The position numbers and the translations under genes are program-made. From a virus, in IMG/VR virus record IMGVR_UViG_3300011116_000834, positions 44,403-108,402 of that record: a stretch of 64,000 bases of DNA. The stretch is one strand, 5' to 3'. Position 1 is the stretch's first letter. Every line of letters starts with the position of its first letter. The notes beneath the pieces are model-generated. The model ran no database searches and was not told the origin of the DNA. It saw only the letters and a program-made list of their open reading frames with translations. Below, in pieces: positions 15,901-63,994 of this stretch.

Positions 15901-16470
15901 ATGGGTTGCAATTGCAATAAAAACAAAAAAAGTGAACCTCCTGCATCAGAACCAAAAGCATCACCAGCAGAGGCATCTCCTACAACCTTTAGAAAAGAAG
16001 AAATAGTCAAAGAAGGTGGTATCAAGGAAAAATTGACGATGATGCAAAGTTTTGCTTCTGCAATTACTTCCCGTGGATTTAATAATGAGAAAGTGACTAT
16101 TCCGATGAAGCAACTTCGAGTAATCAGTTGCTTTGGAAATAAGGATCAAGGTGGAGTTCTCCCACCATGCGAACATCTGAAGGAAAGCAGCACTCCAGGT
16201 AAGTTTTTCTGTGGTGGATGCGGATGTGGTGATCGAAAAGCAACTTGGTTAATTGCCGATGACACTGAGTATGGTAAATTGGATTACCCTCGCCTAAACT
16301 GCCCTCTACAGATGCCTGGATTTTCCAATTATACTAAATCCAAACCAGATGAGGCAAATATGCCTATAACTAGAAGATATTATATCGAACAACTTCCGTA
16401 TACGGAAATTGAAAAATTCAAGGTTTCCACGAATGAACCACCAGTGAACCCAACGAATCCAGAAAAATAA
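15901..16470 (+). CDS. Small Cys-rich protein with MGCNCN start
   Basis: A 189-residue protein opening with MGCNCNKNKK and carrying a second cluster near residue 100 (FFCGGCGCGDRK), plus isolated Cys at 79, 90 and 139. The spacing suggests metal binding (zinc or iron-sulfur), but I recognise no known domain. A Pro/Ala/Ser/Glu-rich linker follows the N-terminus and a Pro-rich tail ends the protein. It has a TAGGAA ribosome binding site and is the last gene before the hairpin and late promoter that open the gp13 operon. A structural or assembly role is possible; function is unknown. Confidence 0.55.
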   Translation: MGCNCNKNKKSEPPASEPKASPAEASPTTFRKEEIVKEGGIKEKLTMMQSFASAITSRGFNNEKVTIPMKQLRVISCFGNKDQGGVLPPCEHLKESSTPGKFFCGGCGCGDRKATWLIADDTEYGKLDYPRLNCPLQMPGFSNYTKSKPDEANMPITRRYYIEQLPYTEIEKFKVSTNEPPVNPTNPEK

Positions 16471-16473
16471 TAA

Positions 16474-16508
16474 AAAACTCTCCTTATAAATAACATAAGG
16501 AGAGTTTT
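16474..16508. terminator. 14-bp perfect inverted repeat enclosing a late promoter and the gp13 Shine-Dalgarno
   Basis: Arms 16474-16487 (AAAACTCTCCTTAT) and 16495-16508 are exact reverse complements around a 7-base loop. The 3' arm ends in TTTT and the 5' arm starts with AAAA, so it could terminate in both directions. The late box TATAAATA (16485-16492) straddles the 5' arm and loop, and the 3' arm contains AGGAGAG, the gp13 ribosome binding site. Read-through RNA from upstream would fold and hide this site; RNA started at the late promoter would lack the 5' arm and leave it free. Confidence 0.8.
16485..16492 (+). promoter_or_regulatory. Late promoter TATAAATA for the gp13 operon
   Basis: Exact match to the T4 late consensus TATAAATA, recognised by gp55-containing RNA polymerase. 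With T4-like spacing the transcript would start near 16498, giving a 14-base leader that begins with AGGAGAG directly before the gp13 ATG at 16512. Confidence 0.8.
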
Positions 16509-16511
16509 CAT

Positions 16512-17324
16512 ATGTCAATGTCTTCAGCAGCACCCAACTCACGACAAACACTCATCGATTATTGCCTTAGAACTCTAGGCGCACCAGTCATTGAAATAAA
16601 TGTGGACCAGCAACAATGCCAAGACCGTTTGGATGAAGCATTGCAATATTTTGTTACGCGACATTTCGATGGTGTGCAGAAAGTCTATTTTAAATATCTT
16701 TTGAATTCTACGGATCTAGATCGTGGATTTATTCATACTGGAGATATAGGAACTCCTTCTGGAGATCCTGATGGACCCACAGGAAATGACATCGTCTCAG
16801 TGATCAAAGTTTTTAGATTTGGAACTCTTTCTGGTGTTAATATGTTTGATGTTAGATATCAACTGGCATTGACAGATTACTTCGGCATCAATCGTGGATT
16901 GAATGGAAGTCAATCAACGCCTCTTGCTGGTTATCAAACAACCATGCAATATATTAGTCTTCTTGAACAATTCTTCAGTCCTGAAAAATCAATTAGATTC
17001 AGTCAAGTGACTGACAAAATCTATGTTGATGCATTTTCTCAAGATATAGATCCAGGAAACTATCTTGTAATAGAAGCATATGCAATATTGGATCCCGATC
17101 TTCACACAAAAATCTATAATGACCGAATGCTTAAGAAATATGTCACCGCTCTCATTAAAAGGCAATGGGGAGCAAATATGCTTAAATACGATGGTGTGCA
17201 ACTTCCAGGTGGAATCACATTCAAAGGTCAACAAATATATGATCAGGCAAATCAAGAAATAGCACTGATAGAGCAAGAATTTGAACGAGCATATGAACTT
17301 CCAATTGATTTCATGATCGGATAA
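16512..17324 (+). CDS. 13: gp13 neck/head-completion protein
   Basis: A 270-residue protein at the position and of the kind of T4 gp13, which with gp14 forms the neck that joins the DNA-filled head to the tail. The N-terminus (TLIDYCLRTLGAPVIEINVD and the following ERLDEALQYF-like segment) is typical of gp13 in T4-like phages. T4 gp13 is 309 residues, so this version is somewhat shorter. It opens the late operon behind the hairpin and TATAAATA box and is followed after three bases by gp14. Confidence 0.85.
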   Translation: MSMSSAAPNSRQTLIDYCLRTLGAPVIEINVDQQQCQDRLDEALQYFVTRHFDGVQKVYFKYLLNSTDLDRGFIHTGDIGTPSGDPDGPTGNDIVSVIKVFRFGTLSGVNMFDVRYQLALTDYFGINRGLNGSQSTPLAGYQTTMQYISLLEQFFSPEKSIRFSQVTDKIYVDAFSQDIDPGNYLVIEAYAILDPDLHTKIYNDRMLKKYVTALIKRQWGANMLKYDGVQLPGGITFKGQQIYDQANQEIALIEQEFERAYELPIDFMIG

Positions 17325-17327
17325 TCC

Positions 17328-18248
17328 ATGGCAACAAATCCATACTTCAAAGAATATATCGGAGAACAAAATCTATTGGATAGTCTGGTCGTGGAAACGA
17401 TCAAGACCATGGGTCGTGACATGATCTATATTCCAAGAGAATACTACAATAAAGACATCATCTTTGGAGAGGATGTGACTTCTAAATTCAATACTGGATA
17501 TACGATTGAAATGTACATTCAGAATGTGACTTCATTTGGCGGACAGATGAATATTATCAATAAATTTGGTATTAACATAACCGATAGAATCACACTTCAG
17601 GTTGCAAAAACCAGATTTAATACCGAAGTGGTTGGAAAGACCAGTTTAAAAACACCAAGAGAAGGCGATTTAATTTATTTTCCATTTAATAAAAATTTAT
17701 TTGAAATAAATTATGTTGAAGACAAGATTCCCTTCTTCCAATTTGGGCAATTATACACATATACGCTCACCTGCGAACTGTTCACATATACACAAGAAAC
17801 CATCAATACTGGTATTAGTGAAATCGATGAGGTGGAAGAACTCAGAAAAAACAATATTCTTTCATTGACATTATCTGGATCTCCAGTCACTGGATCTACA
17901 GTACTCAAGCGAGGCGAAAAGGTATATCAGGTAAATGGAGTAACTGGCACAACTGCATCATATGCAAATGCAACTGCTGAAGGTACTATAATTGAATATA
18001 CTGGAAATACCACATATCTCAAGGGAGCAAGTGGATCGTTCCACTATGGCAGTGCTGGTACTCAATCAATAAAGGGTGTGGAAAGCGGAACAGAATATTA
18101 TGTTCTTGGTGTTACATCTACAAATATCAATATATCAATTGACCCAATTTCTGGTGTTGATGAATTAGAAAATGATGTATATGGTGAAAAAGCAGACACA
18201 GAGATTAATTTCTCTCGCGATAATCCATTTTCCGAGGAGTGTAATTAA
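17328..18248 (+). CDS. 14: gp14 neck protein
   Basis: A 306-residue protein following gp13 and preceding gp15, as in T4. The N-terminal part (NPYFKEYIGEQNLLDSLVVE, then IPREYYNKDIIFGED) matches the neck protein gp14, which completes the head and provides the tail docking site. T4 gp14 is 256 residues. The extra length appears to lie in a Gly/Thr/Ser-rich beta segment at about 190-275, which may be an inserted decoration domain. Its stop overlaps the gp15 start by one base. Confidence 0.83.
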   Translation: MATNPYFKEYIGEQNLLDSLVVETIKTMGRDMIYIPREYYNKDIIFGEDVTSKFNTGYTIEMYIQNVTSFGGQMNIINKFGINITDRITLQVAKTRFNTEVVGKTSLKTPREGDLIYFPFNKNLFEINYVEDKIPFFQFGQLYTYTLTCELFTYTQETINTGISEIDEVEELRKNNILSLTLSGSPVTGSTVLKRGEKVYQVNGVTGTTASYANATAEGTIIEYTGNTTYLKGASGSFHYGSAGTQSIKGVESGTEYYVLGVTSTNINISIDPISGVDELENDVYGEKADTEINFSRDNPFSEECN

Positions 18249-18997
18249 TGTTTAGCGTTAATCAATCATACTATAATGAATCAATACGAAAAATAGTAAT
18301 TGCATTTGGATCGTTATTTGAATCAATATATGTGACTCGTCTAGACGAAAATGGAAATGAAAAAGAAAAACTTAGAGTTCCAATTGCATATGGAAGCAAG
18401 GAAAAATATATCTGGAGACTTTCTCAGGAAAGCAGTCTATCCAAGAATACTAAAGTTCAAATCACCTTACCAAAAATTGGATTTGAGATAACCACAATGC
18501 TATACGATCCAAGTCGTAAGCTAAACAGAACATTGCAGAGAAGCGAACTAGTAAATGGAACTGTTAAAAAAGCATATTCTGAAGTTCCATATGTGATAAA
18601 TTTTTCCATGTATTGTTTCACTAGAACCATGGATGACATGTTGCAAATAATTGAACAAATAGTTCCTTATTTTGCTCCAGATTACACTGTCACAATTAAA
18701 ATGAATGATTTAAATCCTACTGTCGATATACCATTTGTATTGAATACAGTTTCTCTTAATGAGAACTATGAAGGAACATTCGACACTCGAAGAGCATTAA
18801 TCAGTACTTTTGATTTTAGCGTCAAGACTTACATCTATCCAAATATTTGTGGTTCTGCTGGAAATATAATCGAAAGAACTGATCTAAATTTTTATGATGA
18901 TCTTGGTGCTACTGCGGCAAATTATGTTGGAGATGTAGGATACACTGGTGATGTATACACTGGTTCTATAACTGAAGTGAATGGAAATTGGCCATGA
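18248..18997 (+). CDS. 15: gp15 tail completion / sheath stabiliser
   Basis: A 249-residue protein in the gp15 slot (T4 gp15 has 272). The beginning (VNQSYYNESIRKIVIAFGSL) and the strand LRVPIAYGSKEKYIWRL are characteristic of the family. gp15 forms the ring that caps the tail tube and contracted sheath and connects to the neck. The stop overlaps the gp16 ATG in an ATGA arrangement, which fits translational coupling. Confidence 0.85.
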   Translation: MFSVNQSYYNESIRKIVIAFGSLFESIYVTRLDENGNEKEKLRVPIAYGSKEKYIWRLSQESSLSKNTKVQITLPKIGFEITTMLYDPSRKLNRTLQRSELVNGTVKKAYSEVPYVINFSMYCFTRTMDDMLQIIEQIVPYFAPDYTVTIKMNDLNPTVDIPFVLNTVSLNENYEGTFDTRRALISTFDFSVKTYIYPNICGSAGNIIERTDLNFYDDLGATAANYVGDVGYTGDVYTGSITEVNGNWP

Positions 18998-19476
18998 ATA
19001 CACATAAAACTGCGGAAGAAAAATTATCTGAAGTTCTTGATATTGAATTATCAAAGACACCAGATTCTCCTCCAGAACTAAAACAAGTTGATTCCTTTAT
19101 CAAGGAAGTCAAGATTAAAAGAAAAGCACAAGTAAAGCAGGATTTTGATTCTGCAAGAAAGAACATGAAAGAATTGATTAATATTGGGTTTGAAGCAATC
19201 GATGGAATCATGAGGGTTGCGGAGGCAGGAGATTCTCCCAGAGCATATGAAGTTGCTTCTGTGCTTATAAAGACCGTTAGTGAAATAAATACAGATATGA
19301 TGACAATGCATAAGACGAATGCAGAAGCACTTGGGGTGAACAAGGTCATCAAGAGCAATACTACAAATAATTCTATTTTTGTTGGTTCTACTCGGGATTT
19401 GCAAAATATTATAAATCAATCCAGAAGTCAATTGAAAGTTATTAAGAATGATGATGTGACCAATGACGAAAGCTAA
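18994..19476 (+). CDS. 16: gp16 small terminase subunit
   Basis: I use ATG 18994 (ATGA overlap with the gp15 stop) rather than the TTG two codons earlier. The product is 160 residues, close to T4 gp16 (164). It is mainly helical and charged, with a central helical stretch suited to the oligomeric ring that regulates the large terminase and recognises DNA for packaging. It overlaps gp17 by 14 bases, the usual arrangement for the two packaging subunits. The assignment rests on position, size and helical composition. Confidence 0.8.
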   Translation: MNTHKTAEEKLSEVLDIELSKTPDSPPELKQVDSFIKEVKIKRKAQVKQDFDSARKNMKELINIGFEAIDGIMRVAEAGDSPRAYEVASVLIKTVSEINTDMMTMHKTNAEALGVNKVIKSNTTNNSIFVGSTRDLQNIINQSRSQLKVIKNDDVTNDES

Positions 19477-21208
19477 AGACGGATATTTAGGCAATCCAAA
19501 TCTTAAACCTGTTGGTGTACAGCAACAATTTACACCACATCAGGTTGAGGAATATATAAAATGTTCCAATGATCCAGGATATTTTGTAAAAAACTATGTC
19601 AAGATCGTTGCTGTTGATAAAGGTCTTGTTCCATTTGAGATGTACGATTATCAAGAAGAGTTAATCGATACTCTTCATAATAATAGATTCGTAATTGGAA
19701 AACTTCCAAGACAGACTGGAAAGACCACTACAGTAGGTTCATATCTACTACATTATGTTTTATTCAATCAAAATGTAAATATTGCCATTCTTGCAAATAA
19801 ACAGACAACAGCAATAGAAATCTTGAGTAGAATCAAGATGGCATATGAATATCTTCCAAAATGGTTACAGCAGGGGGTTATTGAATGGAATAAGGGTTCA
19901 ATTGTTCTGGAAAATGGATCCCGTATCATTGCATCGGCAACATCATCGTCTGCTATCCGTGGTGGATCATTTAATTGCATTTTGCTGGACGAGTTTGCTC
20001 ACATTCCAACGCAGATTGCTGAAGAGTTCTTTACTTCAGTATATCCAACCATTACTTCTGGTCAATCTACCAAGATGTTCATCATATCAACTCCTAATGG
20101 ATTGAATATGTTTTATTATTATTGGAAGGGTGCGATCAATAAGCAAAATGGTTATGTTCCATTTGAAGTCCATTGGAGTCAGGTTCCCAAATATCCAGGT
20201 GGACCACTTCGTGATGAAAAATGGAAACAGGATATGATCAGTAAGACTTCTGAAAAGCAATTCGAGCAGGAGTTCGAATGCGACTTCTTGGGAAGTTCCA
20301 ATACATTAATATCCTCTGCCAGACTTCATACTTTAGTATATTCTAAACCCATATTAAGAACCAAGGATGGAATGAATATCTATCAGGAACCCATTCGAAA
20401 GGATTTGGATATTCCAAAATCTCAGGATCATTTATATTTCATTACCGCAGATGTTGCTGAAGGGCAAGGTAAAGACTATACCGCTGCGGTAGTACTAGAT
20501 GTAACTGAATTTCCCTATAAGGTCGTAGCGACATATAGAAATAATACGGTATCACCTTTGTTATTTGCTTCGGTTCTAAAAACCATTGCTAGAAAATATA
20601 ATAATGCTCATGTTCTCATAGAAGTTAATAGTATTGGTATAGAAGTAGCGAATGTTCTTCATACAGATCTAGAATATGAAAATATAGTTAAGACTGCTAT
20701 GATGGGCAGAAAAGGTCAAATCATTACAGAAGGTTATGGACCTGTTAAGAAAATTCAAATGGGCGTAAAAACTTCGGTATTGACTAAAAAAGTCGGATGT
20801 CAGGTTTTAAAAAACTTAATTGAAGAAGATAAACTTATCGTCGAAGATGCCGACATTATTTCCGAATTTACGACATTTATATCAAAAAAGCAAAGTTTTG
20901 AAGCAGAAGATGGACACAATGATGACTTGGTCATGTGTCTTGTATTATTTGCATGGGCAACCAGACAACAATATTTTAAAAATCTAACCGATATGGATGT
21001 TCGTCTGGCAATGTATCAGAAGGATATTGAGGAAATTGAAGATCAAATGTTGCCTTTTGGTTACTATTCCGATGGGGTATCTGATGCTGAAGAAGCAGAA
21101 GAAGATATGAAATGGTCTTCTGGAAATGATCATTGGTTGATATTTGATCGTAAAGATGTCAAGACTCCTTGGGACGACCTTATGCCCAAAAAGAATAGAC
21201 GGTCATGA
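19463..21208 (+). CDS. 17: gp17 large terminase (packaging ATPase-nuclease)
   Basis: A 581-residue protein (T4 gp17 has 610) that pumps DNA into the prohead and cuts the concatemer. The Walker A-like motif RQTGKTT is at about 84-90. Walker B is at 172-177 (CILLDE), followed by the coupling motif FIISTPNG near 210. The C-terminal RNase H-like nuclease shows the acidic residues in FITADVAEGQGKDY (about 328), LIEVNSIG and GHNDDLVMCLVLFAWA. It starts inside gp16 and ends before a late promoter for the tail genes. Confidence 0.95.
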   Translation: MTKAKDGYLGNPNLKPVGVQQQFTPHQVEEYIKCSNDPGYFVKNYVKIVAVDKGLVPFEMYDYQEELIDTLHNNRFVIGKLPRQTGKTTTVGSYLLHYVLFNQNVNIAILANKQTTAIEILSRIKMAYEYLPKWLQQGVIEWNKGSIVLENGSRIIASATSSSAIRGGSFNCILLDEFAHIPTQIAEEFFTSVYPTITSGQSTKMFIISTPNGLNMFYYYWKGAINKQNGYVPFEVHWSQVPKYPGGPLRDEKWKQDMISKTSEKQFEQEFECDFLGSSNTLISSARLHTLVYSKPILRTKDGMNIYQEPIRKDLDIPKSQDHLYFITADVAEGQGKDYTAAVVLDVTEFPYKVVATYRNNTVSPLLFASVLKTIARKYNNAHVLIEVNSIGIEVANVLHTDLEYENIVKTAMMGRKGQIITEGYGPVKKIQMGVKTSVLTKKVGCQVLKNLIEEDKLIVEDADIISEFTTFISKKQSFEAEDGHNDDLVMCLVLFAWATRQQYFKNLTDMDVRLAMYQKDIEEIEDQMLPFGYYSDGVSDAEEAEEDMKWSSGNDHWLIFDRKDVKTPWDDLMPKKNRRS

Positions 21209-21235: not shown

Positions 21236-21243
21236 TATAAATA
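21236..21243 (+). promoter_or_regulatory. Late promoter TATAAATA for gp18
   Basis: Exact late consensus in the gap between gp17 and gp18. The expected start point near 21249 leaves a leader with AAGGAGAG at 21256-21263, a strong ribosome binding site five bases before the ATG at 21268. Confidence 0.8.
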
Positions 21244-22535: not shown

Positions 22536-23084
22536 ATGGCAACATTAAACGAATTTAGAAATAATTTTTTTGGAGTAAGACCCAATCGATTCATGGTCGA
22601 AACACGCTGGCCATCGACGGTTACTTCTCCAGATTTAAGTGACCTCAACATTTATGTCAAGGCAGCAGATCTTCCAGGTTCAACAATTGGTACAATTCCA
22701 ATTGCATGGCAAGGAAGAGTAGTTAAGTTTTCTGGTGAACGAGTTTACGCGGATTGGGTCATTTCAGTATATGATTCCAGTATTCCTGCAAAGGATCTTC
22801 GTAATGGATTTGAGCGTTGGATGGAAGCAATGGATGGTAGAGATACCCATGCAATTAATTATAATCTGACCGCCGACTGGGTTGTTAGATATAGTGATGT
22901 CTCTCCAGGCACTTCAACTACCCCAACACCAACTCAAAATCCAAATAATTTCAACAAATCAGTTAAACTTAAAAACTGTTTTCCAGTAGACATTGGCGCA
23001 ATTACTTTAAATTATGATCTTTCGGATTCTTTTACCGAATTTACCGTGCAAATTGCTTACGATTACTGGGAACCATACAACTAA
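22536..23084 (+). CDS. 19: gp19 tail tube protein
   Basis: A 182-residue protein (T4 gp19 has 163) directly behind the sheath gene. The family pattern is visible: FGVRPNRFMVETRWP at the start, DLPGSTIGTIPIAWQGR in the tube loop, and SGERVYADWVISVYDS with LRNGFERWMEAMDG in the middle, then a C-terminal strand (FTEFTVQIAYDYWE). It forms the hexameric rings of the inner tube through which DNA passes. A Pro/Thr/Asn-rich insert near residues 125-140 accounts for the extra length. Confidence 0.92.
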   Translation: MATLNEFRNNFFGVRPNRFMVETRWPSTVTSPDLSDLNIYVKAADLPGSTIGTIPIAWQGRVVKFSGERVYADWVISVYDSSIPAKDLRNGFERWMEAMDGRDTHAINYNLTADWVVRYSDVSPGTSTTPTPTQNPNNFNKSVKLKNCFPVDIGAITLNYDLSDSFTEFTVQIAYDYWEPYN

Positions 23085-29074: not shown

Positions 29075-29107
29075 AACCCAGGATCGAAAGGTCCTGGGTT
29101 TTCTTTT
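29075..29107 (+). terminator. Rho-independent terminator after gp23
   Basis: An 11-bp stem (29075-29085 with 29090-29100, one G-U pair) closed by a GAAA tetraloop and followed by TTCTTTT. It is the strongest terminator in the window and should insulate capsid transcription from the genes downstream. The next late promoter begins at the end of the T-run. Confidence 0.92.
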
Positions 29108-29114
29108 ATAAATA
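29107..29114 (+). promoter_or_regulatory. Late promoter TATAAATA adjoining the gp23 terminator
   Basis: Exact late consensus. Only five bases (CTGAT) separate the box from the ATG at 29120, so RNA started at the usual distance would begin at or next to the start codon, without a ribosome binding site. Confidence 0.75.
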
Positions 29115-29119
29115 CTGAT

Positions 29120-29710
29120 ATGCCTAACAATAGTCAACAGATAATAATTGACAATAGTTCATCGAATATTCTTCGTGATCTTCCAGGAGATTTCTTATTT
29201 GAGAACAATTTTCAACCAGATACGAATAATAATCTAACAAACAATAAATTTAGATTTACATTGACTCGTTGTCCAACAATGACTTATTTCTGTCAGAGGG
29301 CAAATATTCCATCCTTAAGTTTTGGAACTTCAATTCAATCAAATCCAACTGGAGTAAGCATGAGAAGACCTGGAACTTCCTATGTCTATGAAGACCTTCA
29401 GGTTGGATTTGCTGTGGATGAAGAGATGAAGAATTGGTTGGAACTTCACAATTGGATACGAGATCTTGGAGTCTCATATCAAAGCGCATCGGAAGTTCTT
29501 CGAGAATCTCAAAAGATATGCAGTGCCTTTCTTATGGTATTGAATAGTGCATATCGTCCAATTCTTTGCGTAAAATATAAAAATGTCTATCCAACATTTG
29601 TTAGTGGAATAGACTTTGATTCTTCGTTGACTGATACAAATGCAGTGATTGCAACTGCAACATTTGCATATACTCATTATGAGATAGAAAGATTTGCAAA
29701 TAATCCATAA
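29120..29710 (+). CDS. Tail completion / tail-tube-like protein (gp3-like by position)
   Basis: A 196-residue protein between gp23 and uvsY. In cyanophage-type T4-like genomes this slot is usually annotated gp3, tail completion and sheath stabiliser. The sequence itself looks like the tail-tube family: FRFTLTRCPTMTYFCQRANI, then IPSLSFGTSI, DLQVGFAVDEEMKNWLELHNWI and a final FAYTHYEIERF strand, comparable to gp19 and baseplate tube initiators gp48/gp54. A structural role at a tube end is therefore likely; which T4 gene it corresponds to is uncertain. Its only nearby promoter predicts a leaderless late mRNA. Confidence 0.72.
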   Translation: MPNNSQQIIIDNSSSNILRDLPGDFLFENNFQPDTNNNLTNNKFRFTLTRCPTMTYFCQRANIPSLSFGTSIQSNPTGVSMRRPGTSYVYEDLQVGFAVDEEMKNWLELHNWIRDLGVSYQSASEVLRESQKICSAFLMVLNSAYRPILCVKYKNVYPTFVSGIDFDSSLTDTNAVIATATFAYTHYEIERFANNP

Positions 29711-32454: not shown

Positions 32455-32475
32455 TGCATCAAGTAGAGGATGATC

Positions 32476-33045
32476 ATGACTCAAGAAAATAAACCAGAAG
32501 AGAAAATAATAGAAGAAGAAGTCAAGAAATTAAAACATTATATCAATAATGTTGAATTCTGCAAGGCAATGGTGGAATGGAAGAAACTAGTGAAGGAAGC
32601 AGAGGAATGTGGTGATAATAGACCACCTGCAACGCATTACATTGCCGAATCTTTTCTAAAGATTGCAGAACATCTTTCACATAGACCAAACTTCATCAAC
32701 TATCCTTTTCGTGAAGACATGATAGGAGATGGTGTAGAGAACTGTCTTCTTTATGCGCATAACTTCGATCCAGATAAATCCTCGAATCCTTTCTCGTATT
32801 TTACTCAGATAATATATTATGCCTTTCTGCGTAGAATAGAGAAGGAAAAGAAACAAGCATTCATCAAGTATAAATGCATGCAGATGAAGGATATGGATGG
32901 TAAATTTATCGAATGGATGAAGAAAGATTCTGATACTGGAACCTATACGGAATTCCTACAGAAACATTTTTCATTGACAGAAACTGATGTCGAGAAACTT
33001 GAACCAAAATCAAAAAAGAAAAGAAAGAAAAGGAAAGATAAGTGA
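32476..33045 (+). CDS. 55: gp55 late-transcription sigma factor
   Basis: ATG 32476 is preferred over 32470 because AGAGG (32465-32469) then lies six bases upstream. The 189-residue protein (T4 gp55 has 185) shows the sigma region-2-like part of the family: FREDMIGDGVENCLLYAHNF and NPFSYFTQIIYYAFLRRIEK. gp55 replaces the host sigma factor and recognises TATAAATA. The tail is an unusual lysine-rich run (SKKKRKKRKDK) rather than a clear hydrophobic-acidic clamp-binding end. Coactivator gp33 is not visible in this window. Confidence 0.92.
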   Translation: MTQENKPEEKIIEEEVKKLKHYINNVEFCKAMVEWKKLVKEAEECGDNRPPATHYIAESFLKIAEHLSHRPNFINYPFREDMIGDGVENCLLYAHNFDPDKSSNPFSYFTQIIYYAFLRRIEKEKKQAFIKYKCMQMKDMDGKFIEWMKKDSDTGTYTEFLQKHFSLTETDVEKLEPKSKKKRKKRKDK

Positions 33046-49528: not shown

Positions 49529-49536
49529 TATAAATA
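49529..49536 (+). promoter_or_regulatory. Late promoter TATAAATA for the second fibre cluster
   Basis: Exact late consensus immediately after the GT2-TPR stop codon and 15 bases before the ATG at 49552. It is the main candidate promoter for the fibre genes downstream. Confidence 0.75.
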
Positions 49537-49551
49537 ATGCTATAGACTACT

Positions 49552-49746
49552 ATGGCATTTCCATCTAATCCAATTCAAGGAACCACATACGACAATAACG
49601 GTCGTATGTGGTCTTTTAATGGATATGCATGGGATAAAATACAGGTGACTGGTGGAGGTGGCATTGTTGGTAATTATGTTTCCACATTCAATGGGTTGAC
49701 AGGAGATGTTGTTTTTGGTATAAATATCGATGGTGGAACTTATTAG
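49552..49746 (+). CDS. Small fibre-associated protein (64 aa)
   Basis: A 64-residue protein. Residues 1-32 (FPSNPIQGTTYDNNGRMWSF, then NGYAWDKI) form the small module FPxxPxxGxxYxxNGxxWxxNGxxW that opens many marine phage fibre proteins and is also seen at the start of the gene at 56943. It continues with STFNGLTGDVVFG, a fibre repeat, and ends IDGGTY, the same ending as the 940-residue collagen-like protein downstream. A 12-bp hairpin lies within its codons. It is probably a virion protein or a fragment of a former fibre. Confidence 0.6.
   Translation: MAFPSNPIQGTTYDNNGRMWSFNGYAWDKIQVTGGGGIVGNYVSTFNGLTGDVVFGINIDGGTY
49582..49612 (+). terminator. 12-bp perfect inverted repeat inside a coding sequence
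   Basis: ACCACATACGAC (49582-49593) and its reverse complement (49601-49612) enclose a 7-base loop and are followed by CTTTT. The element lies 30 bases inside the small fibre gene. It may terminate part of the transcripts coming from the promoters upstream, or control translation of the small gene. Confidence 0.5.
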
Positions 49747-63829: not shown

Positions 63830-63901
63830 TGGGGAGTAGTTCAATGGCAGAACTCCCGCCTTTGGAGCGGGCTGTTGGAAGTTCGAGTCTTCCCTCCCCA
63901 G
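63830..63901 (+). tRNA. tRNA-Gln (UUG)
   Basis: Complete cloverleaf: acceptor TGGGGAG with CTCCCCA, D stem GTTC/GAAC, anticodon stem CCCGC/GCGGG with loop CTTTGGA (anticodon TTG), T stem GGAAG/CTTCC with loop TTCGAGT, discriminator G. The leading T-A pair is typical of tRNA-Gln. It begins at the base after the methyltransferase stop codon and reads CAA, a codon used very often in these AT-rich genes. CCA is not encoded. Confidence 0.93.
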
Positions 63902-63906
63902 TTTTT

Positions 63907-63994
63907 GGGATTGTGGCGAAACTGGCGAAACGCAACGAATTTAAAATTCGTCACGGTTAAAGACACATTGTGGGTTCGAATCCCACCAATCCCA
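63907..63994 (+). tRNA. tRNA-Leu (UAA)
   Basis: Class II tRNA with acceptor GGGATTG/CAATCCC, anticodon stem ACGAA/TTCGT and loop TTTAAAA (anticodon TAA), a long variable arm (CACGGTTAAAGACACATT), T stem GTGGG/CCCAC with loop TTCGAAT, and discriminator A. It lies five bases after tRNA-Gln. It reads TTA (and by wobble TTG) codons. CCA is not encoded. Confidence 0.92.

Follow-up and report, generated by a model that had tools for sequence, protein, structure and literature searches.

A T4-type late promoter within a hairpin predicted to mask the gp13 ribosome binding site, maintained by compensatory change in uncultured phages

The 64-kb stretch of viral DNA analyzed here (64,000 nucleotides, hereafter the window) raises the question of how a neck and terminase operon is controlled when the ribosome binding site of its first gene lies in a hairpin that also holds a late promoter box. 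The genes on either side of the hairpin are as follows:

15901–16470, plus strand: upstream gene encoding a 189-aa protein (MGCNCNK...), whose TAA stop (16468–16470) lies 3 nt before the hairpin
16512–17324, plus strand: gp13-like neck protein gene (head-tail adaptor Ad2; PHROG 211)
17328–21208, plus strand: remainder of the operon, nearly contiguous, encoding a gp14-like head closure protein, a gp15-like tail sheath stabilizer, and the small and large terminase subunits

The next TATAAATA after the start of this operon is at 21236. The genes upstream of gp13, from 0.7 to 16.5 kb, are co-directional and of fibre/adhesin type. The gene at 15901–16470 had no match in PHROG or Pfam; a Cys-rich MGCNC... 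protein of ~190 aa, encoded just upstream of gp13, is conserved in relatives. Elsewhere in the window, PHROG 45, a tail-tube family, is matched by two separate genes (22536–23084 and 29120–29710), and two tRNA genes lie in tandem at 63830–63994. Between the upstream stop codon and the gp13-like start codon, the following features were delineated:

16474–16487, plus strand: hairpin 5' arm, AAAACTCTCCTTAT, the anti-Shine-Dalgarno strand, predicted to be missing from late transcripts
16485–16492, plus strand: T4-type late promoter box, TATAAATA, identified by sequence and kept in nearly all relatives
16488–16494, plus strand: hairpin loop, AAATAAC, from the RNA fold
16495–16508, plus strand: hairpin 3' arm, ATAAGGAGAGTTTT, holding the Shine-Dalgarno (SD) sequence and a 4-nt U-run
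16498, plus strand: predicted +1 of the late transcript by T4 numbering; the mRNA would begin AGGAGAGUUUUCAUAUG
16498–16504, plus strand: SD of the gp13-like gene, AGGAGAG, fully paired in the predicted fold of read-through RNA

A first-pass annotation of this DNA had described a perfect 14-bp inverted repeat with AGGAGAG in its 3' arm ahead of the gp13 ATG, and both descriptions hold: all 14 pairs across 16474–16508 are Watson-Crick (four of them GC), and the AGGAG of the 3' arm is separated by 9 nt from the ATG (16512–16514). Its statement that the repeat surrounds TATAAATA is correct as to overlap and not as to flanking on both sides, the box being made up of the three 5'-arm bases nearest the loop and five bases of the loop. 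No other perfect inverted repeat in the window is as long, and Markov-1 resamples of 64 kb contained a mean of 0.0 stems of at least 14 bp and 0.02 of at least 12 bp. The RNA fold has a predicted energy of -17.1 kcal/mol (z = -7.0; 0/200 shuffles equally stable), and in the predicted read-through fold the SD lies wholly within the stem. A generic repeat or chance origin is ruled out by the resampling and by the hairpin's status as the longest stem of the window; Rfam returned no known element at the site. The box count was dropped as evidence by itself, given that TATAAATA shows no enrichment over shuffles (eight occurrences in the window vs 6.3 expected, neither rarer nor commoner than chance). 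What is notable is the combination of box and hairpin, together with its conservation, rather than TATAAATA by itself, and this composite of promoter and RBS-masking hairpin is a real, selected regulatory element.

It is reasonable to take TATAAATA for a late promoter because the genome encodes a candidate for the sigma factor that would recognize it:

32470–33045, plus strand: gp55-like late sigma factor gene (37% identity to T4 gp55 over 122 aa, E 1e-19)

In T4 late-promoter numbering the first base of the box is -13 (PMC2988020), which sets the predicted +1 at 16498, where AGGAGAG begins, in agreement with where the first-pass annotation had placed it. Among relatives, a start predicted in this way would clip the SD to GAG in 12 of 65 contexts, so in these either the start must shift or the SD is weak. 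A divergent double promoter, as at T4 53/4 and 51/26 with TATAAATA on each strand, was ruled out, there being no minus-strand TATAAATA here and the neighbouring genes being co-directional. In T4 (NC_000866, near 77349 and 116454), those divergent late promoters have inverted repeats that also pair SDs.

The modelled cost of opening the region from SD to AUG is 19.0 kcal/mol on read-through RNA vs 3.4 kcal/mol on RNA beginning at 16498. We consider it likely that a T4-type late promoter has here been built into an RBS-sequestering hairpin, gating gp13; anatomy, compensated conservation, locus specificity, modelled accessibility and the presence of gp55 are the observations in its favor. Transcripts entering gene 13 from the upstream fibre/adhesin genes would contain both arms, and on these the SD would be buried and gp13 poorly translated. 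The gp55-RNA polymerase would initiate at TATAAATA, at about 16498 and thus at the SD itself, yielding a late RNA that lacks the 5' arm and from which gp13 could be freely translated. The hairpin would in this way insulate the neck/terminase operon from read-through out of the upstream module and link the operon's leading gene to a late promoter of its own; in the window's lineage it may also terminate some upstream transcripts. In this scheme we infer the late start site, the existence and timing of read-through RNA, the size of the repression, and termination. The proposal of a promoter joined to a translational gate, also made from the window's letters, is well supported by architecture, covariation, energetics, the gp55 homologue, and T4 precedent. 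Its extension, that neck and terminase synthesis is strictly dependent on the late promoter, is an overreach: the upstream stop lies 3 nt from the stem, and a terminating ribosome could melt much of the hairpin. When a ribosome terminating at 16468–16470 is modelled, the opening cost drops from 19 to 5–10 kcal/mol, and because such a ribosome would cover part of the 5' arm, gating of RNA that is being translated may be leaky.

The upstream fibre module is preceded only by the TATAAATA at 681 and looks late, so that the classic early-vs-late rationale for a hidden ribosome binding site may not fit. Because these upstream 15 kb resemble a late fibre module, the gate probably serves as insulation of one late unit from another, or as a block on read-through.

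Conservation of the element was assessed in 80 IMG/VR loci (gp13 56–87% identical) and in further loci from a pattern scan, giving 105 distinct leaders; a loose DNA pattern scan returned mainly chance matches, and a stricter one mainly gp13 leaders. An ATAAATA-type box occurs just upstream of the ATG in nearly all of the 105 leaders. The search for the same element with compensatory changes, suggested by the first-pass annotation, was productive: the hairpin is also present in ~65 distinct contexts upstream of gp13 homologues (42–87% identity to the window gp13), and both arms covary. Stem variants in which pairing is kept include ACTCTCC/GGAGAGT, GATCTCC/GGAGATC, TTCTCC/GGAGAA, AACTCCG/CGGAGTT, AAACTCC/GGAGTTT, and GCTCC/GGAGC, as well as AATCTCCG/CGGAGATT and ATCTCCATCTT/AGATGGAGAT; CTCCG/CGGAG forms the stem in L025–L027 and L069, and one stem pair appears as C-G, A-T, and T-A among relatives. 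The sister loci L005 (GATCTCC/GGAGATC) and L263 (GTTCTCC/GGAGAAT) differ in both arms while encoding nearly identical gp13 proteins, and pairing, mostly Watson-Crick, is preserved in each. In another relative (L032) the hairpin is wholly enlarged, with the promoter still enclosed and the SD in its 3' arm.

Pair counts were taken from an equal-loop set, a mixed-loop MAFFT alignment having misregistered the shorter loops. Shuffles (0/2000) did not reproduce the standard pairing at anchored outer pair 1 (48/48 elements vs 31.8 expected) or anchored outer pair 2 (45/48 vs 21.7 expected). In a strict alignment of 25 rows, 94.3% of cells are paired and covariation is 0.160 vs 0.071 (0/500 shuffles), and sliding the register lowers pairing to 47–64% in all cases, with a lower covariation score each time. 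At the outer pairs, G-U on the sense strand outnumbers A-C by ~17 to 5, a ratio that composition confounds. These sequence patterns indicate selection on the element in its sense-strand RNA form, with part of the pairing constrained by the AT-rich arms and the SD, independently of any gate.

Masking of the SD is specific to the gp13 leader. The probability that the SD is paired is 0.88 at gp13 vs 0.47 with a shuffled 5' flank, and at the remaining late promoters of these loci it is 0.59 vs 0.55 when shuffled; these other late promoters nearby leave their SD unmasked. At 29075–29114 in the window, ahead of a tail-tube gene, a terminator-like hairpin (AACCCAGGA, 8 nt, TCCTGGGTT, then TTCTTT) has TATAAATA immediately after it. 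This is the usual succession of terminator and promoter, vs the nested order at 16474. A promoter-in-hairpin RBS mask was also seen in other uncultured phages (L089, L242, L217, L102, L108, and L274), where the client genes include an HNH gene (L089, weak match), an HNH-like gene (L242, recognized by eye only), and a RuvC-like gene (L217), which resemble known T4 clients (for the RuvC-like gene, cf. T4 gene 49). Genes for gp5-like hub proteins are likewise preceded by the promoter-in-hairpin composite in other uncultured phages.

The distribution of the gate was examined on a 103-row tree of gp13 proteins. One clade of 73 rows is gated in all but one row (72 of 73), a second clade of four rows, separate from it, is gated as well, and overall there are only three changes between gated and ungated, the number of origins being approximate given a quick tree search and some weak forks. 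The ungated sister clade, of 22 rows, carries CATAAATA, often without an SD, and because it does without the gate, gp13 does not, in general, require gating. Its gp13 leaders (L040–L060) contain GCCATAAATA, often with no recognizable SD, which suggests SD-independent initiation on a very short leader. The U-run was gained or lost within gated lineages in five changes on the same tree, and masking is therefore independent of the terminator-like tail. The composite occurs once per genome in four gated genomes of 74–157 kb and is absent from two ungated genomes. In the 12 named phages checked, the gated form was not found at the gp13 leader, the Mosig leader having the box with weak pairing; megablast likewise gave no match among named phages.

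Other explanations for the hairpin were weighed against the gate. It may be mainly an intrinsic terminator of the upstream fibre transcript, with RBS masking a by-product of the tiny intergenic space, which we regard as possible, if doubtful. At least four U's follow the stem in 60 of 81 gated rows, the pairing of an A-run with the U-run is a typical terminator trait, and both T4 (RB32) and RB49 have terminator-like hairpins just upstream of gene 13, with the promoter outside; in L228, moreover, a 12-bp hairpin with U5 lies upstream of a second TATAAATA serving gp13, and no RBS is masked there. However, the sense-strand U-run of the window has only four bases, all inside the stem and with C next, and a terminator scan of the site listed the minus strand and not the plus strand. 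Stems that mask the SD are also retained without a U-run in an 8-row and a 4-row clade, and the SD always lies within the hairpin, with the 3' arm starting at about +1, neither of which is needed for termination. The first-pass suggestion that read-through RNA could terminate at the TTTT is thus plausible only: most relatives, with at least four U's, speak for it, and the window's own U4 and uncalled plus strand speak against it. Two further stems may be recorded here: in L228 (9902–9959) and L291, a terminator-like hairpin with TATAAATA in its loop is followed by a second TATAAATA, and in the window an intergenic 12-bp perfect stem (ACCACATACGAC/GTCGTATGTGGT, 49582–49612), a probable terminator, lies between the TATAAATA boxes at 49529 and 49719.

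Translational coupling, by which polycistronic gp13 would be translated only once ribosomes ending the upstream gene melt the 5' arm, gains from the 3-nt spacing between upstream stop and stem, from a median stop-to-TATAAATA distance of 16 nt in relatives, and from the modelled fall in opening cost (19 to 5–10 kcal/mol) under a terminating ribosome. That distance is nevertheless unconserved (11–38 nt; 38 in L005 and 30 in L211), and the invariable promoter in the loop would be left unexplained and would make coupling needless, so that we hold this reading to be unlikely. Much less probable still is that the palindrome acts as DNA, either as an operator at the late promoter, bound by a dimeric regulator, or as a cruciform easing promoter opening. 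Its palindromic form and overlap with the promoter would suit such a role, and T4 I-TevI represses its own late promoter via an overlapping operator (PMC2988022), but the freedom of the sequence to change while pairing is kept is unexpected of an operator, the hairpin of L032 is rearranged, and the excess of G-U over A-C favors sense RNA, subject to the same confounding by composition. The element does sit between a variable fibre module and a conserved neck module, as would a mobile regulatory cassette of promoter and stem-loop spread by recombination and marking a module boundary, and early-promoter stem-loop cassettes reportedly occur in T4-type phages, which counts for this reading. Since each of the four gated genomes scanned has a single copy, at gp13 and nowhere else, and since inheritance follows the gp13 tree, a cassette is highly improbable.

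A broader version of the gate, in which the 35-base element acts at once as terminator, late promoter, and translational gate, insulating two late operons and kept by compensatory evolution in a large clade of uncultured T4-like phages, where it heads the neck/terminase operon, is a tentative extension of the likely gate; that such a three-in-one element would concern late-late insulation, as opposed to early-late timing, is equally speculative. The gate itself suggests that neck and terminase levels in some T4-like phages are set via their own promoter even given read-through RNA, and for environmental phage transcriptomes, transcript abundance alone may mislead on late-gene expression.

The arrangement had been treated as new in the first-pass annotation; it is instead a documented T4 mechanism, known from gene e, soc, 49, I-TevI/II/III, and segB. 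For T4 gene e, lysozyme yield from long transcripts is ~100-fold lower, and the 5' strand of the structure is missing from late transcripts (PMC3014915). The likeness to the window element lies in an RBS sequestered on long RNA and in late promoter(s) placed in a 5' strand that is missing from late RNA (PMC3014915); gene e differs in guarding lysozyme in an early operon, in having two late promoters and a smaller stem, and in heading no gp13-type operon. RBS-sequestering structures upstream of the late genes soc and 49 are named in the same T4 review (PMC3014915), and these leaders are likened to the window element by description only, the genes being different. The hairpin-gate logic also occurs in I-TevI/II/III, segB, and Aeh1 mobE (PMC2988022). 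Of these, T4 I-TevII has nearly the same layout, a CCTCGTAT/ATACGAGG stem whose loop contains TATAAATA and whose 3' arm carries the SD, and its CCTCGTATAAATATGAATACGAGG is nearly superimposable on the window element; however, I-TevI/II/III, segB, and mobE encode homing endonucleases in early/middle transcripts, whereas the gene guarded here is structural, essential, and part of a late region. The hairpins preceding gene 13 in RB32 and RB49 occupy the same junction, directly upstream of the SD, but the SD lies outside their stem and their loop is without TATAAATA. Although the mechanism itself is known from T4, a hidden-RBS late switch at gene 13 is not described in the literature searched, and what is new is which gene is guarded (the one that opens the neck/terminase operon), how deeply the element is conserved, and the use between two apparently late modules. 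The T4 hidden-RBS switch, for which deep compensatory evolution is demonstrated here, thereby reaches beyond a few genes for lysis, decoration, a resolvase, and homing endonucleases to the leading gene of an operon essential for assembly and packaging.
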